From: Comamonadaceae bacterium
Lineage (GTDB): Bacteria; Pseudomonadota; Gammaproteobacteria; Burkholderiales; Burkholderiaceae_C
Reading direction: 5' to 3'
Length of the DNA stretch: 64,000 nt
Assembly: GCA_947452785.1 (NCBI GenBank)
Contig: CANGDZ010000001.1
Span: forward strand, 62,001-126,000
The notes under the pieces: model-generated
Database searches by the model: none
Seen by the model: only the letters and a program-made list of their open reading frames with translations
Told to the model about the DNA's origin: nothing
Position numbers and translations under genes: made by a program
Part shown: one piece after another, positions 6,447-47,795 of the stretch
Layout of the letters: every line of letters starts with the position of its first letter
How positions within the stretch are numbered: position 1 is the stretch's first letter

Positions 6447-7226
6447 ATGGATCTCGGTCTGAAGGGCAAAAAAGCCATCATCTGCGCATCGTCACAGGGC
6501 TTGGGCTATGCGTGCGCGTTGGCCTTGGCACAAGAGGGCTGCGAAGTCTTTATCAATGGCCGCAACCTCGACAAATTGGCCCTTGCTGCAGAAAACTTGC
6601 GTCAGACCACCGGGGCAATAGTCACACCTGTACAAGCAGACCTCAACACCGATTCGGGCCGCAGCGCCTTGCTGCTGGCCTGTCCAGAGCCAGACATTTT
6701 GGTCAATAACAACGCAGGACCGCCGCCAGGCCAACTTGCCGACTGGGACCACTCTGCCTGGATAGACGCCCTGGAAAGCAACTTGCTTTCGGCGGCGTTA
6801 TTGATGCGTGAAGTGATCCCTGGCATGCGCGAGCGGCGCTTCGGGCGCATCATCAATATCACCTCGGCCATGGTCAAAACACCGCACGCAGCGATGGGAT
6901 TGTCCACTGCAGCCCGTGCAGGGCTGACGGCCTTGTCTAAAGCACTGGCCCGTGAGGCCGTCATCGACAATGTGACGATCAACAACCTACTGCCGGAGCG
7001 ATTTGACACGCCAAGGCAGGAGTTTATGGCCCAACGCATGATGAAGGAATTAGGCATCACACGCGATGAAGCACGAGCTCAAATTGCGTCGACTTTGCCT
7101 ATCAACCGAATGGGAGATCCCAAAGAATTTGGTGCAGCCTGTGCATTTTTTTGCGCAGTGACTTCAGGATTCATTACGGGTCAAAATCTTCAATTAGACG
7201 GTGGAGCCTATAGCGGATTGATTTGA
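6447..7226 (+). CDS. SDR-family protein with substituted catalytic residues
   Basis: The protein has 259 residues and an SDR fold: nucleotide loop ICASSQGLGYACALALA, NNNAGPP, and a C-terminal ITGQNLQLDGGAYSG. The usual SDR active site is altered. After Ser140 the positions expected for Tyr and Lys are Ser153 and Arg157 (SAMVKTPHAAMGLSTAAR), and the glycine-rich loop lacks its first glycine. This resembles the known beta-ketoacyl-reductase-like SDR subgroup that departs from the catalytic tetrad. It closes the first operon, 17 bp after the dehydrogenase. Its reaction, or whether it is an oxidoreductase at all, is unclear. Confidence 0.8.
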   Translation: MDLGLKGKKAIICASSQGLGYACALALAQEGCEVFINGRNLDKLALAAENLRQTTGAIVTPVQADLNTDSGRSALLLACPEPDILVNNNAGPPPGQLADWDHSAWIDALESNLLSAALLMREVIPGMRERRFGRIINITSAMVKTPHAAMGLSTAARAGLTALSKALAREAVIDNVTINNLLPERFDTPRQEFMAQRMMKELGITRDEARAQIASTLPINRMGDPKEFGAACAFFCAVTSGFITGQNLQLDGGAYSGLI

Positions 7227-37154: not shown

Positions 37155-37176
37155 ACTTATGACAAAAATGTAATGG
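37155..37176. promoter_or_regulatory. Candidate response-regulator site, copy 1
   Basis: ACTTATGACAAAAATGTAAT occurs in the divergent gap between the FlaG-like gene and the first response regulator. It matches ACTTATGACATAAACGTCAT at 41661-41680 in 17 of 20 positions. The half-sites ATGAC and GT-AT form an inverted repeat with a 6-base spacer. Confidence 0.5.
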
Positions 37177-37301
37177 GGCAACAAATCCCGTTTGTGAATA
37201 TCACCCCTAGAATGAAAAATTGTTGAAATCACCATTAATGACTTAATCGATTATTGGCTGTGTACCATCTTGAGCCAGTTGTCATTCTTTGGAGCTGTGC
37301 C

Positions 37302-38018
37302 ATGAACTTGCAAGTGAGAACCCCAACTCCCCAAATTTTATTGGTCGAGGACGAAAACAAGATCGCTGAATTTGTGACGCAAGGTTTGGAGAACGCAGGC
37401 TATCAGGTCGAGCATGTGGCCGATGGCGTCAGTGGCTTGAAAAACATCTTTAAAAAAAACTATGACTTGGTTCTGCTGGACCTTATGCTGCCCAAGCTCA
37501 ATGGGATGGAACTGCTGCAGCAATTACGCCAGGACGGCAACAAAACGCCCGTGATCATTTTGAGCGCCAAGGTCGACTTGAACGACCGCTTGCTTGGCTT
37601 TGAAACAGGCGCCAACGACTACATGCCCAAGCCGTTCTTTGTCGAAGAACTGATCGCCAAGATGAAAGTCATCCTCGGGCGAAAGCAATATGCACCGCCG
37701 CCCCAAACCCTCACAGCCAGTCACCTGACACTCAATTTGGTCAGCCGCAAAGTGCTTTGGTTTGAGGCGGAGGCGGTGCTCAGTCCGCTGGAATTCACCC
37801 TGATGCAATACCTCATGCAAACACCTGGACACATTTACACCCGACAGCAGATATTGAAAAACGTCTGGGGCATCAACTTTGACCCTGAAACCAATGTGGT
37901 GGATGTGTGCGTGCAAAGGATCAAGCGCAAACTCAGCAGCAATGCCAGCGACCGCTACGGACCCATTGAATCGGTCAGAGGCGTGGGTTACAGGGTCAAA
38001 GCAGAAGCGTCCGCATGA
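37302..38018 (+). CDS. OmpR/PhoB-family response regulator (copy 1)
   Basis: This 238-residue protein has a receiver domain with the acidic pocket VEDENK and phospho-acceptor D60 (LVLLDLMLPKLNG), then a winged-helix DNA-binding domain (IKRKLSSNASDRYGPIESVR, GVGYRVK). ATG 37302 follows a GGAG site; the upstream ATG is ignored. It overlaps the kinase gene by 4 bp. It aligns without gaps over its full length with the regulator at 39438-40154, showing a recent duplication. Confidence 0.92.
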   Translation: MNLQVRTPTPQILLVEDENKIAEFVTQGLENAGYQVEHVADGVSGLKNIFKKNYDLVLLDLMLPKLNGMELLQQLRQDGNKTPVIILSAKVDLNDRLLGFETGANDYMPKPFFVEELIAKMKVILGRKQYAPPPQTLTASHLTLNLVSRKVLWFEAEAVLSPLEFTLMQYLMQTPGHIYTRQQILKNVWGINFDPETNVVDVCVQRIKRKLSSNASDRYGPIESVRGVGYRVKAEASA

Positions 38019-39406
38019 AACGCTCTTTCAAACTGCGGCTGTTCCTGGGCATGATGTGCATTGCCGGCGTCGTTCTTTTGGTCAATCGCTTGATTGCCAC
38101 TACCTTGGTGAAGCAGCAAACTGAAACGACCCTGCACTTGCAAATGCAGAACGGCATTCAAATGTGTTACTACACCATCGAGCATCGGGATCTTTTTTTG
38201 GGTTGTTACAGAACCTTTGCAAATGAAAGATTGATCAGGAATTTGTCAGATGAATTCGTGCTTTGCCAAGAAGGCGCCTCAACCAACCCCCTAGAACAAG
38301 ACCCGCCTTGTTCCAGCGCACAAAGCGACTCAGCCTTTTGGGCGGCGCCCATGTTTGTCAATGACAAGCAAGTTCAAGGCGTGATCAATACGTTGAATGG
38401 ACGCACATGGCATGCTGTGCGGCTCACAGGCCACCCAGAGACGCAGCTTTTTCTGAATGAAGTGTCTCTGCGAGGCTACCTGCAAGACATCTGGAAAATC
38501 AGAGACGATACTTTGATTTTTGTCGCGCCCATCCTGCTGGCCTTGCTGATAGGGGCCACGCTCATTCAAATTCGCTTCGCGATGTCGCCCGTTGAGTCCT
38601 TACAGGCCGCATTGAAACGGGTGAACACCCAAAATCTGGGCGAATCGGACCCGATCACTTCCCCCTACAGAGAATTCCAGGATTTTGTGGCAGTGTATGA
38701 CGATCTGTGGCGCAGATTGAATGCCAGCTTCATCAAAGCCAGGCGATTTTCTTCAGATGCGGCGCATGAACTGCGCACCCCTTTGGCCATTTTGCGCGGC
38801 AATGCCGAGCAACTGATGGGCAAACTGCCGGTCGGCTCAGAGGCTCAAATACACGCGCGCAAAATAGCCGATGAAATTGAACGCTTGATCGCCATGAGTG
38901 AAGATTTACTGCTATTGTCCAAGGCCGATGCGCAGTTGATCACCCATGATTTGGACGACTTTCACATCAGTACTTTTCTAGAGGAACTTGCCCAAAATTC
39001 TTTGGACTACCACCCCCAACTGATGGTCAAAAAGTCGATTGAAGTCCATCTGGTCTGGCACTGTAATCAACGCTTGATTCAGCAACTCATTCACAACTTG
39101 TACACGAATGCGGTGAAATACAACACCCCCAAGGGATGGATCAAGTTCAATCTGCACCGCGATGGCGACGAATTGGAACTGAGCTTGGAAAATACAGTCA
39201 CCTCCATCCCTGAAGATCTACCGCAAAAAGCCTTCGATAGATTTTACCGCGGCAATTCTGATCGAAACCGAGACATCGCTGGACTGGGCCTGGGTTTAAG
39301 TATCTGCCATGAGATTGCCACATTGCACCAAGGAACCTTGACCATCGAAGTCACTCCTCATTCAACGGTCATCGTCAGATTCCGGGCCCCACTGGCCTAT
39401 ACCTGA
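38015..39406 (+). CDS. Sensor histidine kinase (copy 1)
   Basis: This 463-residue protein has membrane segments at about 10-32 and 167-188 flanking a periplasmic sensor domain with cysteines C51, C64, C84 and C99. A HAMP-like linker follows, then HisKA with H251 (SSDAAHELRTPLAIL), and an HATPase domain with HNLYTNAVKYN and GLGLGLSICHEIA. The four cysteines sit at identical positions in the second kinase, suggesting disulfides or metal or redox sensing. It phosphorylates the regulator encoded just upstream. Confidence 0.92.
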   Translation: MKRSFKLRLFLGMMCIAGVVLLVNRLIATTLVKQQTETTLHLQMQNGIQMCYYTIEHRDLFLGCYRTFANERLIRNLSDEFVLCQEGASTNPLEQDPPCSSAQSDSAFWAAPMFVNDKQVQGVINTLNGRTWHAVRLTGHPETQLFLNEVSLRGYLQDIWKIRDDTLIFVAPILLALLIGATLIQIRFAMSPVESLQAALKRVNTQNLGESDPITSPYREFQDFVAVYDDLWRRLNASFIKARRFSSDAAHELRTPLAILRGNAEQLMGKLPVGSEAQIHARKIADEIERLIAMSEDLLLLSKADAQLITHDLDDFHISTFLEELAQNSLDYHPQLMVKKSIEVHLVWHCNQRLIQQLIHNLYTNAVKYNTPKGWIKFNLHRDGDELELSLENTVTSIPEDLPQKAFDRFYRGNSDRNRDIAGLGLGLSICHEIATLHQGTLTIEVTPHSTVIVRFRAPLAYT

Positions 39407-39437: not shown

Positions 39438-40154
39438 GTGAATACAGCCATGAAAGCGCCAAGCCCCAAAATTTTGCTCGTCGAGGACGAAGAAAAGATC
39501 GCCGAATTCGTCGTGCGCGGATTGCAAAATGCGGGCTACCAAGTCGAGCACGTGAGCGATGGCGTCACCGGGCTGAAGCACCTCATTAAAGACAACTTCG
39601 ACTTGGTGCTTTTGGACCTCATGCTGCCCAAACTCAATGGCTTGGAGTTGTTGCAGCAGCTGCGCCAGGAGGGCAACACCACTCCCGTCATCATTTTGAG
39701 CGCCAAAGTGGATTTGAGCGACCGGTTACTGGGATTCGAAGTGGGCGCCGACGACTACATGCCCAAACCTTTTTTTGTGGAAGAACTGCTCGCCAAAATG
39801 AAGGTCATTCTAGGGCGCGGACAGCCTGCGTCTTCCGCTCAAACCCTCACCGCCAGCCATCTGACACTGGATTTGATTAGCCGCAAAGCACGATGGTTCG
39901 ATAAGGAGGCCTTACTCAGTCAACGCGAGTTCACCTTGGTGCAATACCTGATGCAAACGCCAGGGCATATTTTTTCGCGACAGCAAATACTGAAGAACGT
40001 TTGGGGCATCAACTTTGACCCAGAGACCAATGTGGTGGACGTTTGCGTACAGCGAATCAAACGAAAGTTGAGTGGCGGCGAGAATGACCACTACGGGGCC
40101 ATTGAATCGGTGCGAGGAGTGGGTTATCGGGTCAAGGCGGGAGCGCACACATGA
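39438..40154 (+). CDS. OmpR/PhoB-family response regulator (copy 2)
   Basis: This 238-residue protein is colinear with the regulator at 37302-38018. It has the acidic pocket VEDEEK, phospho-acceptor D60, and a winged helix ending in ESVRGVGYRVK. The start is GTG 39438, six bases after a GAGG site; an ATG at 39450 is too far from that site. The recognition-helix region (VVDVCVQRIKRKLS) is the same as in copy 1, so the two may bind the same DNA. It overlaps its kinase gene by 4 bp. Confidence 0.92.
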   Translation: MNTAMKAPSPKILLVEDEEKIAEFVVRGLQNAGYQVEHVSDGVTGLKHLIKDNFDLVLLDLMLPKLNGLELLQQLRQEGNTTPVIILSAKVDLSDRLLGFEVGADDYMPKPFFVEELLAKMKVILGRGQPASSAQTLTASHLTLDLISRKARWFDKEALLSQREFTLVQYLMQTPGHIFSRQQILKNVWGINFDPETNVVDVCVQRIKRKLSGGENDHYGAIESVRGVGYRVKAGAHT

Positions 40155-41572
40155 CGCGGTCCTTGCGACTGCGGCAGTTTGCCATCATTTTGACGATGGC
40201 CGTCGTGGTGGTTTTAATGAGCCGGTCGTTTGCGCAATACAGATCCGGCAACCAGTTTCTCCAAGAACTTCATATAGACATGCAGGCCGGACTGACGCGA
40301 TGTGCTCACGTCACCGAAAGCCAAAGCGAATTTTTAAAATGCAACTCCCCATTTTTTAAAAATTATCTTTTCAACCGGCTCTCGGGCGAAATCACGCTGT
40401 GTCGAAATGGTGAAGTCGTTGGGGAATGGGGTGACCGTTCCTCCTGCATCTTGATCGCCCGAGAAAACAACTTTTGGTCAGGCGCCAATCTCAGCACAGA
40501 ACCCCTTGTTCAATTGGTCGTCAACACCATGGGGGGGGAAATGTGGCACATTGCCAGACTGACGGTCCACCCTGAAATTCAAATCCTGATGCGTGAACAG
40601 GATTTCCAACATGTCCTGTCAGCCATCTACAAGGTTCGCGACCAGCAATTGCCCCTTTTTATCCCACTGCTGTTGCTGGCCGGATTGCTGATGGCGCATT
40701 TTTTAGTCAGTGCCACGGTCGGACCACTCAAAGCTTTGAAAGCTTCTCTTAAAAACCTAAAGCCTGAATCTTTGAAAAATGCACCCATCGTCACAACGCC
40801 TTATCAGGAGTTTGATGACTTCGTCACCGTTTACAACGACCTGCTGAACCGCTTACACAACAGCTTTACTAAGGCCAAACGCTTTTCATCCGACGCTGCG
40901 CACGAATTACGCACCCCTTTGGCTATCTTGCGCGGCCAGGCCGAAGATCTGATTGCAGGTGTGCCTACAGGCTCACCGCTGCAAGTCCGCCTGCGCAGCA
41001 TGTCCGATGAAATTGAGCGTTTGATTGAAATCAGCGAAAAACTTTTACTGTTGTCCAAAGCCGATGCCCAGATGATTGAGCAGGAACTGAGCGACTTTGC
41101 GCTCAGTGAGTTTATAGACGAACTCGCTGAAGAGTCTGCCTTGTACCATCCCAATGTACGCATCAAAAAATCGATTCAACACCATGTGATTTGGCATTGC
41201 GATCGGTCCCTGATTCAACAACTGATTCACAACCTGTACAGCAATGCAGTGAAATACAACATCCCTGATGGCTGGATCACATTCACCCTGAGCAGTGATG
41301 ACCACATGCTGGAATTGGCCATCGAAAATCCATCCGAAAACATTCCCGACGACTTGAATGAAAAGGCCTTTGACCGATTTTACCGTGGGGATGTTGCACG
41401 CGCTCGCAAAGTGGGCGGTACCGGTCTAGGGCTGAGTATTTGCAGTGAAATTGCAAAGCTGCATCATGCTACTTTGACCCTGAAGTCAACCCTCTCACAA
41501 AGCGTTATCGTCAAACTGCGGGCGCCACTGAATGAAGTCAATGCAATGAACATAACGAAATCGTCATGTTAA
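40151..41572 (+). CDS. Sensor histidine kinase (copy 2)
   Basis: This 473-residue protein has the same layout as copy 1: first membrane segment about 10-25, periplasmic domain with C51, C64, C84 and C99, second membrane segment about 167-188, H251 in SSDAAHELRTPLAIL, and an ATPase domain (HNLYSNAVKYN, GTGLGLSICSEIA). The periplasmic sequence has otherwise diverged strongly from copy 1, which suggests related but different signals. The next gene, 142 bp on, encodes the TerB-repeat protein. Confidence 0.92.
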   Translation: MTRSLRLRQFAIILTMAVVVVLMSRSFAQYRSGNQFLQELHIDMQAGLTRCAHVTESQSEFLKCNSPFFKNYLFNRLSGEITLCRNGEVVGEWGDRSSCILIARENNFWSGANLSTEPLVQLVVNTMGGEMWHIARLTVHPEIQILMREQDFQHVLSAIYKVRDQQLPLFIPLLLLAGLLMAHFLVSATVGPLKALKASLKNLKPESLKNAPIVTTPYQEFDDFVTVYNDLLNRLHNSFTKAKRFSSDAAHELRTPLAILRGQAEDLIAGVPTGSPLQVRLRSMSDEIERLIEISEKLLLLSKADAQMIEQELSDFALSEFIDELAEESALYHPNVRIKKSIQHHVIWHCDRSLIQQLIHNLYSNAVKYNIPDGWITFTLSSDDHMLELAIENPSENIPDDLNEKAFDRFYRGDVARARKVGGTGLGLSICSEIAKLHHATLTLKSTLSQSVIVKLRAPLNEVNAMNITKSSC

Positions 41573-41714
41573 ATTTTAAAATGACATAAATATTATTGCC
41601 ATCTAAATATGTCACTTATTACATTCAAGCGCATGCAAATGACAACTGACTAAGCTTGGCACTTATGACATAAACGTCATCCAATAACAGCCTGCGTTTG
41701 GTTATCTTGACGGC
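41573..41714 (+). promoter_or_regulatory. A/T-rich control region of the TerB-repeat gene
   Basis: It contains several related half-sites: ATGACATAAATATTAT (41581-41596), ATGTCACTTATTACAT (41609-41624), ATGACA (41639-41644) and the best copy ACTTATGACATAAACGTCAT (41661-41680), whose ATGAC and GTCAT arms are a perfect inverted repeat. The last copy matches the site at 37155-37176. The cluster fits binding of an OmpR-family regulator, most simply the adjacent pair. Confidence 0.5.
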
Positions 41715-43505
41715 ATGACCACCGCAAACCCCAACCTCCAACTTCTGAATCAATTCAAAGGCGAGATTGATCTGACGCAACAGATCCATTTTGACCACAT
41801 TGATTTGTCGCCGCCTTTGGTGCTGGCTGCGGCGCTGATGTACATGATGGCCTCCGACGGCGAAATCAAAGACTCTGAGAGCAGCCAGTTGCAATCGGTA
41901 CTGGGGGGTAATGACGAACTTTTGGCTTGCGCCGCCAGCTATGTACAGTCAGTGCCAATCGATACGTTTTTGCGGGAAGCCGCTGAGAGCTTGAGCGGCC
42001 TGGACAAGCTGTGTATTTTGACCAATGTCTGCGACTCCTTCTTAGCGGATGGTCAAGCGGATGAACAAGAGTTGCTATTGTTCTCGCGTATCTGCGAGGC
42101 CTTTGGCTTTGATGAAGCGGCTTTTGAGCCGTACTTGAAAACGATTCAACTGAAGAACGACAAGTCGGCACTGGGTCGTTATAACTTGGCCGCGGCAATG
42201 GGCCCCAAAGGCGCCATCAGCAACCATTTGGCACTAGCCGCTTGCATCGTCTACATGATGGCTTCGGACGGCAATATCGGCACCGAAGAAATTGGCCGGT
42301 TGCAAGCCGCTATTGGTGAATTTACGGGGCTCCAATCGGTGGCCTTAAAGTATGTGCTCAAGGTCAAAAACGCACAATTCCTGGCTGAGGTGGCGCCCAA
42401 CTTGAACCCCAGCATCAAACTGCTGATTCTGACCAACGTCTGCGACACTTTGCTGTCCGATGGGGTCGTCGAACCGGCTGAGAAAAAACTGTTCGTTAGC
42501 ATGTTGACCGCCTTCGGCTACAGCGAAAAGACCTTCCGCCGCTACTACGAAACCCTGCACATCAAAAATGTGAAGTCGTTTGACCTGAATGACTTTGCCG
42601 ATAGCGCTGCAGCCCAGGTCTTTCGCTCAGCCAAGTACAAAGCCAGCCAAGCCGCCTTCAATGCAGCCCATGCGGGCGAGGGAGATGGTATTGGCACCGT
42701 GATTCACCGCACCATGGAAGACAACATTGCCAGTGTGTCCCAAAACGCTGGAGGCAAAGACAATGTGCATGTGATGTCGAATAATGCCAACAATCTACAA
42801 AACATTCAGAAAGTTACAGCAGGACAGCGCGAAGACAATATCCAATTCGTCGGCGGCTCCGAACACCCAACAGATAATATTCAGTACGTCGATGGGTACG
42901 AACATGCTACAGATAACATCCAGTACGTCGACGGTCAGTCCCATTTTTCCGCCAATATTCAGCGCTTAGATGCCAGTGGGGGCATTGAAATGTCCTCGTC
43001 CCAACTGCAGTTGGGTCAGGGCATGGGCGTCGAGGGCATGAGCGATTACGAATCTCTGACGGGCACGGCGACCTCTTTGGATTCAGGGGCCAACTCTGAT
43101 ATCTCCATCGAGAGCCGTGGGGGCAAAGGCGGCCTGACGAACATGGCTCAAGCCGAAGTTTCGTACAGAGACCGCGCCATGCAAAACAGCCAAAAGCTGA
43201 CTCAATTCTCCGCAGGCGATGACGCCATGGATGCCGCCACCTTGTTATTGCGCTTGCAAGCCTTGAAGCTGCGCAACGCCGAAGTGGACAGCAAGCTCAA
43301 ACAACTCCATGCCAACGCTGGTCAAACCAGCGTGTTTGCGGAAGGCGAGTCCGTTCAAGTCAGCACAGCCTCCCAACCCGCAATCAACGTCAGCGGGGAG
43401 GCTTCGGTTTTACATCGCATCAGCCAACTTGTGTCGCAAAGCGTAGCGCTGATCGCGAAGCCTCGCCAAGCTCAAGGGATTTATGCCGACGCGGCAATGA
43501 CCTGA
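41715..43505 (+). CDS. Tandem TerB-like domain protein with 13-residue DNIQYV repeats
   Basis: This 596-residue protein has no signal peptide or membrane segment. Residues about 33-140 and 166-285 are two TerB-like helical domains, each with paired acidic motifs (ALMYMMASDGEIKDSE and FLADGQADEQE; IVYMMASDGNIGTEE and LLSDGVVEPAE). Residues 336-425 are seven units of about 13 residues with consensus DNIQYVDG. The remaining 170 residues are rich in Ser, Gln and Ala, with a short coiled-coil-like helix (LLLRLQALKLRNAEVDSKL). I do not recognise this architecture. The upstream motif and position point to control by the duplicated two-component systems. Confidence 0.85.
   Translation: MTTANPNLQLLNQFKGEIDLTQQIHFDHIDLSPPLVLAAALMYMMASDGEIKDSESSQLQSVLGGNDELLACAASYVQSVPIDTFLREAAESLSGLDKLCILTNVCDSFLADGQADEQELLLFSRICEAFGFDEAAFEPYLKTIQLKNDKSALGRYNLAAAMGPKGAISNHLALAACIVYMMASDGNIGTEEIGRLQAAIGEFTGLQSVALKYVLKVKNAQFLAEVAPNLNPSIKLLILTNVCDTLLSDGVVEPAEKKLFVSMLTAFGYSEKTFRRYYETLHIKNVKSFDLNDFADSAAAQVFRSAKYKASQAAFNAAHAGEGDGIGTVIHRTMEDNIASVSQNAGGKDNVHVMSNNANNLQNIQKVTAGQREDNIQFVGGSEHPTDNIQYVDGYEHATDNIQYVDGQSHFSANIQRLDASGGIEMSSSQLQLGQGMGVEGMSDYESLTGTATSLDSGANSDISIESRGGKGGLTNMAQAEVSYRDRAMQNSQKLTQFSAGDDAMDAATLLLRLQALKLRNAEVDSKLKQLHANAGQTSVFAEGESVQVSTASQPAINVSGEASVLHRISQLVSQSVALIAKPRQAQGIYADAAMT
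42720..42989 (+). repeat. Seven in-frame 39-bp coding repeats
   Basis: The DNA encodes units beginning DNIAS, DNVHV, QNIQK, DNIQF, DNIQY, DNIQY and ANIQR. The third unit is one codon shorter. Units 4 to 6 are the most alike, suggesting recent expansion. The spacing stays in frame and the bases vary at third positions, so selection is on the protein. Confidence 0.85.
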
Positions 43506-43532: not shown

Positions 43533-44423
43533 TTAACCTTTGTCTTGCAACGCTTGCGCCAAAAAGTCCATCAACACCTTGACCCGGTGCGGGATGTAAC
43601 GGTTGCTGGGTAACACCGCATAAATGCCCAGGGGCACGGCATCAAACGCCTCCAACACCGGCACCACGTCTCCCCGCGCTAAAAACGGCTCCGCAATGAA
43701 ATCAGGTTGACGGGTGATGCCCAGGCCCCGTGCTGCAGCCTGCATCAAGGCGGTACCGTTGTTGGCCATGATGCGACTGCGCACCGGCACGCGTTCCTCT
43801 CGCCCTGCCACCGGATAGGCCCAGTTGCTCGGGCTCAAGTCCACCGAATAAGCCAAGCACTCGTGATGGCGCAGCTCATCTGGACTGCGCGGAGTGCCGT
43901 GCAAGTTCAGGTAAGCGGGCGAGGCCAAGGTAAGCAACTGGCAGGTGCCCAATTTGCGCAAAATGTCCCCTGACGCCAACTGCGCGGTGATGCGGATCGA
44001 CAGGTCAATCCCCTCTTCGATCAAATTGGTGCGACGGTCGGAGAAGTCCATCTCAAATTGAATGTGCGGCTGTTGCTCGGCAAACTCCAGCAGCAAGGGC
44101 ATCAAGCGCTCCAAGCCAAAACTCAAAGGCAGGCCCAAGCGAATCCGACCGCGTGGCTCGACCTTTTCTTGCGTCACTCCCGCTTCAGCTGCGTCCACCA
44201 AGTTCAAGATCACGCGGCACTTTTCCAGGTAAGCGGCCCCGGCCGCGGTGAGCGACAGTCTGCGGGTGCTGCGCGTCATCAACTTGGCGCCCAGCGCGGT
44301 TTCGAGCGCAGAGATTTGGCGCGTCACCACCGAGCGGGCGACGTTCAGCTGATCGGCCACTGCCGTGAAACTGCCGGTCTCGGCGACGCGGGCAAAGAGT
44401 TGCATGGCATGGAGCTTGTTCAT
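43533..44423 (-). CDS. LysR-family transcriptional regulator
   Basis: This 296-residue protein has an N-terminal helix-turn-helix (LFARVAETGSFTAVADQLNVARSVVTRQISALE) and a C-terminal effector domain. It is divergent from the dioxygenase-b561-YceI genes, with an 89-bp gap holding a perfect inverted repeat. It probably controls those genes and itself. Overall it resembles the CrgA/YhjC-like group whose effectors are often aromatic or unknown. Confidence 0.9.
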   Translation of the reverse strand: MNKLHAMQLFARVAETGSFTAVADQLNVARSVVTRQISALETALGAKLMTRSTRRLSLTAAGAAYLEKCRVILNLVDAAEAGVTQEKVEPRGRIRLGLPLSFGLERLMPLLLEFAEQQPHIQFEMDFSDRRTNLIEEGIDLSIRITAQLASGDILRKLGTCQLLTLASPAYLNLHGTPRSPDELRHHECLAYSVDLSPSNWAYPVAGREERVPVRSRIMANNGTALMQAAARGLGITRQPDFIAEPFLARGDVVPVLEAFDAVPLGIYAVLPSNRYIPHRVKVLMDFLAQALQDKG

Positions 44424-44436
44424 AGCATCGTCCTTA

Positions 44437-44457
44437 TTGTTGCTTATTTTGCAACAA
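44437..44457. promoter_or_regulatory. Candidate LysR operator
   Basis: TTGTTGC (44437-44443) and GCAACAA (44451-44457) are perfect 7-bp arms around a 7-base A/T-rich spacer. This contains the T-N11-A pattern of LysR sites. It lies 14 bp upstream of the LysR start and 56 bp upstream of the dioxygenase start. Confidence 0.65.
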
Positions 44458-44512
44458 ATAATTGGCTATTAGATACTTTATTAAATAAGAACAAGCCACT
44501 ACAGTCCATCCC

Positions 44513-45337
44513 ATGCCCTCACTGACCCCCACCTCCTCCCTGCGCAATGTCCTGTTTGTGCCGCATGGCGCGCCCACGTTCGCACTGAACCCTGGCGCAG
44601 CCGGAGCGGCCATGAGCCAATTGGCGCAGCTGCTAGCCCCACCCCGTGCCATCGTGGTGGTCAGCCCACACTGGGAAACCGCGCTGCCCACCGTGGGTTT
44701 GGCCAGCCAGCTCGAAACCATTCACGACTTTTACGGTTTCCCCGCGCCCCTGTACGACATCCACTACCCGGCCAGTGGCTGCCCGGAGGCGGCAGGCGAA
44801 GTCGTGAGCGCGCTGCAAGCCCATGGCTTTGAGGTGCAGACTGACGCCCAGCGCGGCCTGGACCATGGGGCTTGGATTCCCTTGCGGCAAATGTTCCCGG
44901 AGGCCGATGTGCCCGTGATTCCCCTGTCCGTCCAAAGCCACGCCGGCCCCGCCCACGCCTACCGCATCGGTCAGGCGCTGGCCGGTTTGGCCGCCAACAA
45001 CATCTTGATCCTCGGCTCGGGCAATGTGACCCACAACCTGGGCGATCTGCGCATCGCCCGCATGCAGGGCGATCGCACGCCCGCTTATGTGCAGGTGTTT
45101 GCCGACTGGTTGGCCGATCATTTGGCGCAGGGCGATCTGGACAGTTTGCTGAACTACCGCCAGCACAGCCCCGAAGGCATTCGCGCACACCCCAGCGAAG
45201 AACATTTGCTGCCGCTGTTCACTGCCCTGGGCGCTGCAGGACCGGACGCTGTGCCGCAGGCTTTTCACCGCGGCATCAGCGACTGCGTGATCGCCATGGA
45301 CGGTTACGCCTTTCAATCCCTCAAAGGAAAACCATGA
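44513..45337 (+). CDS. DODA-type extradiol ring-opening dioxygenase (LigB/YgiD family)
   Basis: This 274-residue protein carries the family metal ligands H18 (FVPHGAPTF) and H53 (SPHWET), then DHGAWIPLRQMFPEADVPVIPLS and LILGSGNVTHNLGD. These single-domain enzymes cleave catechol-type rings such as DOPA; E. coli YgiD is a zinc form. It heads a plus-strand operon and overlaps the cytochrome b561 gene by 4 bp. The true substrate is unknown; several homologues act on phenolic or quinol compounds. Confidence 0.87.
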   Translation: MPSLTPTSSLRNVLFVPHGAPTFALNPGAAGAAMSQLAQLLAPPRAIVVVSPHWETALPTVGLASQLETIHDFYGFPAPLYDIHYPASGCPEAAGEVVSALQAHGFEVQTDAQRGLDHGAWIPLRQMFPEADVPVIPLSVQSHAGPAHAYRIGQALAGLAANNILILGSGNVTHNLGDLRIARMQGDRTPAYVQVFADWLADHLAQGDLDSLLNYRQHSPEGIRAHPSEEHLLPLFTALGAAGPDAVPQAFHRGISDCVIAMDGYAFQSLKGKP

Positions 45338-45879
45338 GCACGACCTCTTACACCCGCATCGCCAAAGGCTTGCATTGGCTGATGACCGCCGTGCTGATCG
45401 GCATGCTGAGCCTGGGCTTTTACATGGCCGACTTGCCCTTGTCGCCCGACAAATTGCAGCTGTACTCTTGGCACAAATGGGTGGGCGTTACGGTCTTTGC
45501 GTTGGTGTGGCTGAGGCTGTTGTGGCGCATCACACACCGCCCGCCAGCCTACCCGGTCAGCATGCCCCGCACCCTGCAACTCTTGGCACACGGCGGCCAC
45601 TTGGCGCTGTATGCCTTGATGATCGCCATTCCGTTTACCGGTTGGTTGATGAGTTCAGCCAAAGGTTTTCAGACCGTGTGGTGGGGCCTGTGGCCCATTC
45701 CTGATCTGTTAGCCAAAAACAAAGAACTGGGTCACAGCTTGCAAGAAGTGCATGAGGCTTTGAACTGGCTCTTGGTGCTACTTATCAGCGGCCACGCGAC
45801 TGCGGCTTTGAAACACCACTGGATCGACCGCGACGATATTTTGACCCGCATGCTGCCTCAAGGAAAAAAACATGATTAA
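45334..45879 (+). CDS. Cytochrome b561 family membrane protein
   Basis: This 181-residue protein has four membrane helices. Heme-ligand histidines are visible in KGLHWLMTAVL, YSWHKWVGVTVF, LAHGGHLALYALM and EVHEALNWLLVLLISGHATAAL. Bacterial b561 proteins transfer electrons between quinones and oxidants such as superoxide. It starts inside the dioxygenase stop (ATGA) and overlaps the following YceI gene by 8 bp, so the three are translated together. The b561-YceI pairing is frequent in proteobacteria. Confidence 0.9.
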   Translation: MSTTSYTRIAKGLHWLMTAVLIGMLSLGFYMADLPLSPDKLQLYSWHKWVGVTVFALVWLRLLWRITHRPPAYPVSMPRTLQLLAHGGHLALYALMIAIPFTGWLMSSAKGFQTVWWGLWPIPDLLAKNKELGHSLQEVHEALNWLLVLLISGHATAALKHHWIDRDDILTRMLPQGKKHD

Positions 45880-46438
45880 ATTGAAAATCTTCGCTTTGCT
45901 CGCCACCCTGGCATGCACCCTGCCTGCCGCCCATGCGGTGGAATACAAAACCGTGGCGCTTGACAAGAGCAAAGTCGCGTTCAACTACAAACAAATGGGC
46001 GTGGCCATGGACGGCCAGTTCAAAAAATTTAGCCCCCAGCTGAGTTTTGACCCGGCTAAAGCGGCCAACGCCAAAGCCAGCATCGAGATCGAACTGGCCA
46101 GCGTGGACGCGGGCTCAGCCGAAGCCGACGATGAAGTGGTGGGCAAATCATGGTTCAACGTGAAGAGTTTTCCCAAGGCCACCTTTGTGTCGACCCAGGT
46201 CAAGCCTGCGGGCACCAACCAGTACGACGTGACCGGCAAACTCACGATCAAAGGACAAACCCGCGATGTGGCTTTTGTGCTCAAGCACACCACGCAGGGC
46301 AGCAACGGCGTGCTGAGCGGCGGCTTCACCATCAAGCGTGGCGACTTCACGATTGGCGAGGGCCCTTGGGCCAAGTTCGACGTTGTCGCCAACGACATTC
46401 AAATCAATTTTCAACTCACCGCCCAACCGGGCAAATAA
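45872..46438 (+). CDS. YceI-family periplasmic protein (copy 1)
   Basis: This 188-residue protein has a signal peptide (MIKLKIFALLATLACTLPAAHA) and a YceI lipocalin-like barrel: VDAGSAEADDEVVGKSWFNVKSFPKATFVS, LTIKGQTRDVAF and ending DIQINFQLTAQ. YceI proteins bind isoprenoid quinones or amide lipids in a tunnel. With cytochrome b561 it may shuttle or protect a quinone. A second YceI follows at once but shares limited sequence. Confidence 0.9.
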   Translation: MIKLKIFALLATLACTLPAAHAVEYKTVALDKSKVAFNYKQMGVAMDGQFKKFSPQLSFDPAKAANAKASIEIELASVDAGSAEADDEVVGKSWFNVKSFPKATFVSTQVKPAGTNQYDVTGKLTIKGQTRDVAFVLKHTTQGSNGVLSGGFTIKRGDFTIGEGPWAKFDVVANDIQINFQLTAQPGK

Positions 46439-46459
46439 TTTTTTAATTGGAACAAACTC

Positions 46460-47038
46460 ATGAAAAAACTCAACCGCATCGCCGCTGCTTTGACAATCGC
46501 CACCTTGTTCGCAGGCAGCGCCATGGCCGCCCCCGTCACATACAACATCGACGGCTCGCACACTTTCCCGCGTTTTTCTTACTCGCACTTTGGCTACTCC
46601 ACCCAATTGAGCAGCTTCAGCAAAACCACCGGCAAAGTGGTGTTTGACGCCGAAGCCAAAACCGGTTCAGTGGAAATCGTGATCGACACCAAATCGGTGA
46701 ACACCGGTTTCAGCGATTTCAATGAACATATCCAAGGCGAAGACTTCTTGGACACCGCCAAATTCCCGCAAGCCACCTTCAAGTCCACCCAAGTGATTTT
46801 TGACGGTGCCAAGCCCTCCAAAATTGAAGGCCTGTTGACCCTCAAAGGCGTGACCAAAGCGGTGACCTTGACTGTGACGGGTTTTCAGTCTGCGCCGCAC
46901 CCGATGCTGAAAAAACCAGCGCTGGGCGCCAACGCGTTCACCGTAATCAAGCGCACCGAATTCAACGCCGGTAAGTACGCGCCTTATGTGGGTGATGACG
47001 TGCGCATCGATATCGCTGTCGAAGCGATGTCCCAGTAA
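46460..47038 (+). CDS. YceI-family periplasmic protein (copy 2)
   Basis: This 192-residue protein has a signal peptide (MKKLNRIAAALTIATLFAGS, cleaved after AMA). The mature part follows the YceI pattern closely: YNIDGSHTFPRFSYSHFGY, EDFLDTAKFPQATFKST, LTLKGVTKAVTLTV and a final DIAVEAMSQ. It is nearer to canonical E. coli YceI than copy 1. The gap after copy 1 is 21 bp, so it belongs to the same operon. Confidence 0.92.
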   Translation: MKKLNRIAAALTIATLFAGSAMAAPVTYNIDGSHTFPRFSYSHFGYSTQLSSFSKTTGKVVFDAEAKTGSVEIVIDTKSVNTGFSDFNEHIQGEDFLDTAKFPQATFKSTQVIFDGAKPSKIEGLLTLKGVTKAVTLTVTGFQSAPHPMLKKPALGANAFTVIKRTEFNAGKYAPYVGDDVRIDIAVEAMSQ

Positions 47039-47072
47039 GCCTCTTAAACGCTCAGAAGCATAAAATCACGGC

Positions 47073-47795
47073 ATGATGAAAACCATTTTTTGCATGCTGT
47101 GTTGCACGTCGGTCTGGGCGCAAGCTCAGAACGACGTGGCTACTTCTGAGTCCTGGGCGTTCAAGCTCACGCCCTCGTTTTACGCGACGGCGCAAGAGCA
47201 CAATGCGGTCGATGTAAATCTGCGCGCCAACAATGGTCCGCACGCATTGTGGGTCGGTCAGTACCAGCGCGGAAACGAATTCCAGCAAACCCGAACGGGC
47301 TACGAGTACACCGCCAATTTCGACTGGGGGCAAATGGTGCCTTCGCTGCAGGCCGCCAGCGGTGGCTTTGCCGGCGGCTCACTGAGCTTTCAGATCGGGC
47401 AACCTGTGTATGCCTTGGTCGCTTTCGGTCGCACCAATTTGCGCGACTACTACAACCTGAACTTTGACCCGAACGACATGGTCACGCTCGGCTTCGGGGC
47501 GCATTTGGCTCATGGGCACCAATTGTCTGTTTTCACCGTCAAAGACAACCGACTGGCCACCGATCAAATGATCACCCACGGCGTCTGGCGCTGGCAAGCC
47601 AACGCAGCAGACCGTTGGACGCTGGACTTGGCATACAAAGAGGGCCGCAGCAGCCCTGGTGAGGCGCGCATCACCGGTCGCAGCGCGTCAGTGACCTATG
47701 ACCACCGCCGCACCTTTGTGCGGCTGGCTTACGACGAAAAGGTCAACTTCAGCGCAGACAACCAAACACGGGTGTCGGCGGGTCTGCGCTTTTAA
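47073..47795 (+). CDS. Probable outer-membrane beta-barrel protein, unknown family
   Basis: This 240-residue protein has a signal peptide (MMKTIFCMLCCTSVWAQAQ) and alternating hydrophobic/polar strands rich in aromatic residues. It ends in ...SAGLRF, the terminal Phe used by the barrel assembly machinery. About ten to twelve strands are plausible. I do not recognise the family. It follows the YceI genes by 34 bp, and its stop overlaps the convergent DUF3297 gene stop by 4 bp. Confidence 0.65.
   Translation: MMKTIFCMLCCTSVWAQAQNDVATSESWAFKLTPSFYATAQEHNAVDVNLRANNGPHALWVGQYQRGNEFQQTRTGYEYTANFDWGQMVPSLQAASGGFAGGSLSFQIGQPVYALVAFGRTNLRDYYNLNFDPNDMVTLGFGAHLAHGHQLSVFTVKDNRLATDQMITHGVWRWQANAADRWTLDLAYKEGRSSPGEARITGRSASVTYDHRRTFVRLAYDEKVNFSADNQTRVSAGLRF

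Follow-up and report, generated by a model that had tools for sequence, protein, structure and literature searches.

The question raised by this locus is what a protein that joins two TerB domains to an array of short N-x-Q repeats might do and which system controls its gene. We analyzed the gene within the 64,000-nucleotide stretch of Comamonadaceae DNA in which it lies (from here on, the window; features are collected in Table 1) and compared it with relatives in genomes of the same genus, family, and order.

Table 1. Features of the cassette in the window (RR, response regulator; HK, histidine kinase)
Feature	Position	Strand	Basis and remarks
FlaG-like divergent gene, 110 aa	36740..37072	-	Counterpart in 9/9 loci; profile alignment to true FlaG
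Predicted RR box ATGACAAAAATGTAAT, divergent FlaG-like/RR1 promoter	37159..37174	+	14/16 vs E. coli CusR/HprR core
Extra response regulator RR1	37254..38018	+	Pfam; TTG start may be too early, ATG at 37302
Extra histidine kinase HK1, HK2-like sensor type	38015..39406	+	Pfam; four Cys
OmpR-type response regulator RR2	39438..40154	+	Response_reg + Trans_reg_C; nearest NCBIfam TIGR01387, below cut-off
Histidine kinase HK2, four-Cys periplasmic domain	40151..41572	+	Pfam HisKA + HATPase_c
Weaker second box ATGACATAAATATTAT	41581..41596	+	10/12 matches
Predicted RR box ATGACATAAACGTCAT before TerB gene	41665..41680	+	Ends 34 nt before ATG; orthologues likewise
Tandem TerB/N-x-Q repeat protein, 596 aa	41715..43505	+	Intact ORF, ATG start; TerB x2; orthologues
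TerB domain 1	41820..42128	+	PF05099, 31.8 bits vs cut-off 24.4; AF2 model; 2h5n match
TerB domain 2	42225..42542	+	PF05099, 26.0 bits vs cut-off 24.4
Repeat array: seven units of 12-13 residues with core N-[IV]-Q-x-[VL], units 1 and 2 being degenerate	42720..42989	+	Periodicity, 0/5000 shuffles

The protein carries two TerB domains

The original prediction described two TerB-like domains with paired acidic motifs, and both parts of this description held. A Pfam profile scan gave two matches to PF05099 in the 596-residue protein, each over the curated cut-off and together amounting to 52.5 bits, and the two domains are 43% identical to each other. The acidic motifs form four D-G-x5-E loops, marked by Asp-48/Glu-55, Asp-112/Glu-119, Asp-185/Glu-192, and Asp-249/Glu-256, in which the Asp and Glu residues are invariant in all nine aligned proteins. 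Metal binding has been attributed to TerB domains, and the four acidic loops may bind a divalent cation or a membrane partner. For domain 1, AF2 modeling with 12 domain sequences gave a pLDDT of 78.7 and a pTM of 0.73, and the top solved match of this model by Foldseek was 2h5n (E 7e-3, probability 1.0; none at 0.001), which we take to be a TerB-like protein and which a sequence-profile search of the PDB reached at E 0.22. A VIA comparison of the model with 2h5n gave a Z of 8.8 (rmsd 3.7, 111 residues aligned; next entry Z 4.9) and, because values below ~13 can reflect an arrangement common among helical proteins, the TerB profile match outweighs the fold match. The model lends support to a TerB fold for domain 1, the domain modeled alone. 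A PDB search with the whole protein returned chance-level rows only, and PHROGs gave a weak match to phrog_3989 (function unknown) over residues 180-240 only. As had been supposed, no family along the whole length or across the repeat emerged from Pfam, NCBIfam, PADLOC, PHROGs, or PDB searches. The window protein shares with the TerB family (PF05099) its two domains, its loops, and, for domain 1, a probable 2h5n-like fold, but differs in being a tandem with a long repeat tail, whereas the other relatives inspected in the family and the order are single-domain proteins.

Because one TerB helix of a second-genus protein scores 1.85 by KD19, equal to a supposed membrane segment, this is a weak measure of the hydrophobic C-terminal segment seen in three proteins of a second genus (1.85-2.01) and in the diverged protein G615 (2.25). 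No transmembrane segment stands out in the window protein, whose C-terminal KD19 peaks at 1.08; where its relatives have the hydrophobic segment, it has a possible amphipathic helix.

The N-x-Q array is modular

Seven units of ~13 residues had been claimed at residues 336-425, and the periodicity bears this out: self-identity is maximal at period 13 (0.33), whereas the best shuffle at any period reached 0.23 and 0 of 5000 equaled the observed value. The units occupy residues 336-348, 349-361, 362-373, 374-386, 387-399, 400-412, and 413-425, with units 1 and 2 (DNIASV and DNVHVM) lacking the Gln. The motif N-x-Q-x-[VILM] was found seven times in the tail of the window protein against 0.37 expected (one match overlaps another, and one falls outside the array) and 58 times in the tails of the nine relatives, where some matches likewise overlap or lie outside arrays. 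When the tails were shuffled 5000 times, the motif count was equaled 0 times in seven of the nine proteins, 3 times in L027, and 29 times in L026, which has 2 motifs. Within the arrays, successive motifs usually stand 13 residues apart in the window's genus but 12 apart in the second, and alignment of the relatives reveals differences in array length of whole units. At the DNA level, units 4 and 5 share 28 of 39 bases and units 5 and 6 share 26 of 39, but units 6 and 7 share only 15. Over the 58 matches, Asn is encoded by AAT 31 times and AAC 27 times, and Gln by CAA 39 times and CAG 19 times, a mix that is supporting only because the matches were selected by the same motif and overlaps were counted. 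We conclude from these sequence comparisons that the repeat is real and modular. We also note that the TerB repeat gene of genome G015 (L016 3879-5663), whose array has the fewest motif matches (2), has a frame break near codon 511.

A full-length structure prediction from five sequences had a mean pLDDT of 41.6 and was uninformative over the tail and the repeats, where pLDDT was 25-28 over the repeats, and it favors neither the solenoid nor the binding strip that had been suggested. One interpretation of the array is that it forms a short self-assembling β structure (solenoid or functional amyloid) that polymerizes the TerB protein; the alternating N-x-Q-x-[VIL] pattern would set conserved residues on one strand face and the 12/13 spacing is regular, but second-genus units are often N-R-Q with charged residues in variable positions, the repeat region has no sequence match in Pfam, PHROGs, or the PDB, and the pLDDT over the array is as low as given above. 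We regard this interpretation as decidedly unlikely. The tail had been described as low-complexity; it is not simply so, with conserved stretches around GGLTxMA and RNAEV, and the full-length model, at the same low confidence, places helices at residues 475-496, 507-541, and 565-580.

Long forms are rare and share one gene order

Relatives were found in 7 of 90 genomes of the window's genus, six of them full-length and one a short single TerB protein. Among 399 genomes sampled from the family, 23 matched, with long forms only in the window's genome and in three genomes of one other genus; the remaining matches cover one TerB domain. A sample of 399 genomes from the order gave 10 matches, including one further two-domain protein (G615, 790 residues), which is without its own Pfam TerB match, N-x-Q motif, or D-G-x5-E loop. 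We also read 36 loci of shorter or split matches, some of which display one gene twice: 29 hold a single TerB protein, 2 hold pieces of the second-genus long forms, and 5 hold none. Five relative loci are Comamonadaceae metagenome assemblies. A mobile origin was considered and rejected: plasmid matches (5 records) span the TerB part only, the tail had no match among plasmids, and no phage record or viral contig carried a relative.

All nine repeat-bearing loci, in two genera, have the same order of response regulator, histidine kinase, and TerB gene, with the FlaG-like gene divergent from the regulator (in G070, the cassette is divided between two contigs). The original prediction had raised the question whether homologues always sit beside a two-component pair, and this adjacency was seen at 10 of 10 loci, including that of the diverged G615. 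HK2 of the window is the best blastp match of the kinases in the other five loci of the genus, where a counterpart of HK1 was not found. The extra regulator-kinase pair (window 37254-39406), which is of the same type, separates the FlaG-like gene from the orthologous pair, and a kinase tree places HK1 apart from HK2. Four of the other five genus loci have flanking genes in common, the exception being G008, and no flanking gene in the three loci of the second genus is a counterpart of the window's.

Some further arrangements were observed around these loci. Downstream of the cassette in the window (43533-47795) lie a LysR regulator and a LigB-type dioxygenase, both assigned by Pfam, and then a cytochrome b561-like and two YceI-like genes, recognized by eye; the LysR gene also comes next after the cassette at four of the other five loci of the genus, G008 again being the exception. 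In the G615 locus (L075 1534-6396), the gene for the tandem TerB-like protein diverges from those for a regulator and a kinase of the four-Cys type. On an Azospirillum plasmid (L112 1048-4429), a single-TerB gene is divergent from a response-regulator gene, which may be another association of TerB with a two-component system.

We considered whether the TerB protein is part of a Ter-type stress or anti-phage defense system. Anantharaman 2012 reportedly proposes a link of Ter to defense. HK2 matches the candidate models PDC-M43B (best E 3.4e-11), but the match is to the ATPase region common to kinases. TerB-like proteins do occur in defense systems, for example in Shango, according to the accessible part of the source (PMC10250203). 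Against membership stand the classical Ter component TerD, found in 0 of 10 carriers (4 of these 10 genomes being less than 90% complete), the TerB protein's matches to 0 families in PADLOC 2.0.0, the phage and viral searches above, and the six window neighbors scanned, among which there was no nuclease or helicase. Because of the TerD count and the PADLOC result, we do not file the cassette under Ter or defense, and we consider such membership highly improbable.

The divergent gene is a probable distant relative of FlaG

The divergent gene falls short of the FlaG (PF03646) cut-off, the best of six copies scanned scoring 20.8 against 23.8, with five of the six giving a sub-threshold match; in its own genome, the window's copy scored 14.8 bits and two other places scored 14.6 and 14.2. 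By eye, the second-genus copies are the most FlaG-like; in L015, the end of the contig truncates the gene. When the nine FlaG-like sequences were aligned as a profile with eight true FlaG sequences using hhalign, the probability was 94.9 and the pairwise E-value 4.5e-8, with the alignment extending over the FlaG core. This supports a distant relationship between the FlaG-like gene and FlaG, although single sequences are below cut-off and the divergent gene, unlike FlaG, is not beside flagellar genes. Elsewhere in the window's genome, next to flagellin on contig C10, lies a true FlaG that does pass the cut-off. Co-occurrence with flagellin is uninformative (6 of 6 carriers vs 65 of 90 genomes of the genus), and true FlaG over the cut-off, in 2 of 5 carriers within a 60-genome sample vs 30 of 60 overall, is no help to a flagellar reading.

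The kinase has a four-cysteine periplasmic domain

The four cysteines of the kinase periplasmic domain are invariant in all 17 kinases compared. Of these, 11 have a TerB gene as neighbor, the window contributing two, and the other 6 do not. In the genus, full-length matches to the sensor were found in 12 of 90 genomes, six without the TerB protein, and six more genomes had a partial match only; in the order sample, full-length matches were found in 2 of 399 genomes, both carriers, and four others were partial only. That the kinase is always paired with the TerB protein is ruled out by the former six genomes, and this kinase family therefore likely has several outputs. The converse holds, each TerB gene of the 10 loci having its regulator-kinase pair. 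In four genomes of the genus (L097 4313-8802, L096, L098, and L099), a four-Cys kinase adjoins a gene for a ShlB-type transporter; this outer-membrane transporter gene flanks the other side of the pair, as seen by Pfam in G079 and G025 and by eye in G007 and G023. In L097, a box with 11/12 matches at 6601 separates a small divergent gene from the regulator. We infer that the four-cysteine domain senses redox or metal. The TerB domains had been proposed as the sensors; the evidence instead places sensing in this periplasmic domain of the kinase, with the TerB protein as the predicted regulated output.

An alternative is that the TerB protein acts at the membrane as a feedback modulator of its own kinase, HK2, rather than as an effector. 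The accessible part of a preprint on DjlA describes that protein as membrane-anchored with a TerB-like domain and reports that its overproduction activates the Rcs phosphorelay, for which the J domain is needed (PMC11451591). DjlA and the window protein thus share a TerB-like domain and a tie to a two-component relay; the window protein differs in having two TerB domains, repeats, and no J domain, and its gene adjoins, and is apparently controlled by, a two-component system of its own. The turning up of Rcs by DjlA, the adjacency of TerB gene and kinase at 10 of 10 loci, and a regulator-type box before the TerB gene (see below), which would close a feedback loop, all speak for modulation. DjlA, however, works via its J domain, and neither Pfam nor the DjlA model PRK09430 (17.3 bits vs a cut-off of 162) pointed to such a protein, with no DnaJ match in the window protein; further, the kinase type is present in six genomes without the TerB protein. 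Overall, we consider feedback modulation unlikely, though worth keeping in view.

A predicted regulator box precedes the TerB gene

At 9 of 9 loci, the promoters of both the regulator and the TerB gene hold a predicted box, the inverted repeat ATGACA-N4-TGTCAT (18 of 18 promoters, each with 10-12 of 12 matches); the motif was first taken from two window sites, both counted among the 18. Only 0-15 of 1000 dinucleotide shuffles reached the observed score, and the box nearest to the TerB gene ends 32-34 nt upstream of the start codon in the nine loci; for L013 and L014 the distance is taken to the ATG, a start 15 nt further upstream giving 19. A 12/12 box is also located between the divergent TerB-like gene and the regulator-kinase pair of G615, whose locus, the tenth, has diverged and been rearranged. 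The upstream box of the window stands before RR1, the extra regulator, rather than before RR2, and between HK1 and RR2 the best box has only 6/12 matches, so either regulator might use either box. Before the TerB gene, loci of the window's genus have one strong box, to which the window and L013 add a weaker, more distant one, and those of the second genus (L056, L057, and L058) have two, 27 bp apart.

The published E. coli CusR/HprR box is CATTACAAAATTGTAATG, as given in the accessible part of PMC9302797. Across 19 regions, the best likeness to its core was 10-14 of 16 positions, with 14/16 at the RR1 promoter and at best 11/16 at the TerB promoter; the part of PMC7657598 available holds nothing on the ATGACA-N4-TGTCAT box. 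The cassette thus resembles CusSR and HprSR, the copper and hypochlorite systems of E. coli, in regulator type and inverted-repeat box, but differs in the four-Cys periplasmic domain of its kinase and in having a TerB protein as its output. The corresponding cut-offs (TIGR01387/TIGR01386) were not reached by the regulators (RR2 203.9 and RR1 202.4 vs 279.2) or the kinases (HK2 186.3 and HK1 162.9 vs 292.55). In the window's own genome, the strict pattern was found at six distinct places, two in the cassette and four inside ORFs, vs one for a reversed control. We took the four matches outside the cassette, all inside ORFs, as chance; because the genome-wide search used the strict box only, a wider regulon is possible.

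Taken with the RR-HK-TerB order at 9 of 9 loci in two genera with differing surroundings, the boxes make a regulatory link from the two-component system to the TerB gene a well-supported prediction. It might be objected that the adjacency is historical and that the TerB protein is a constitutive structural component with no connection to the two-component system. Conservation of the order in two genera at different sites, together with a conserved box 32-34 nt before the TerB-gene start, speaks against this objection, which we consider very unlikely to be correct.

Proposed mechanism

Overall, we give about an even chance to the reading that an envelope redox- or metal-responsive two-component system controls a tandem-TerB scaffold with an N-x-Q array of variable length. 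The locus would then be a small envelope-stress cassette consisting of the FlaG-like gene, a response regulator, and a kinase, with the TerB repeat protein as a main output. If the redox or metal state of the four periplasmic cysteines changed, the kinase would be altered, and the phosphorylated CusR/HprR-like regulator would bind ATGACA-N4-TGTCAT in its own promoter, which is common to the FlaG-like gene, and in the TerB promoter, and may activate them. The TerB protein would then accumulate at the cytoplasmic face of the inner membrane, where its acidic loops could bind a divalent cation or membrane partner, and the N-x-Q array could act as a strip of similar docking sites, the number of which would be set by gain or loss of whole units. 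Together these parts would make up an inducible scaffold, gathering protective or signaling proteins at the stressed membrane. A bolder version, which we consider doubtful, is an undescribed envelope-stress cassette in which the four-cysteine kinase directly induces a scaffold of variable valency: the tandem TerB domains would attach it to membrane or metal, gain and loss of whole 36-39-bp units would set the number of partners, and a FlaG-like partner produced from the shared promoter region would link envelope redox stress to flagellar export.

Neither TerB proteins nor CusR-like systems are new in themselves. No description of the two joined with a four-Cys sensor, an N-x-Q array, and a FlaG-like partner was found in the literature that we searched, including the accessible parts of PMC11451591, PMC10250203, and PMC4012209; Anantharaman 2012 could list the architecture. 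The cassette reveals a small family of kinases with a four-cysteine periplasmic domain and a repeat of 12-13 residues without a known family. In the part of the 2024 preprint available, the TerB-like domain of DjlA is called "of unknown function" (PMC11451591). Because the cassette links a TerB protein with a single type of sensor, a single type of regulator, and a readable DNA box, a reporter and a few deletions can test which signal induces it and whether the TerB protein is needed.
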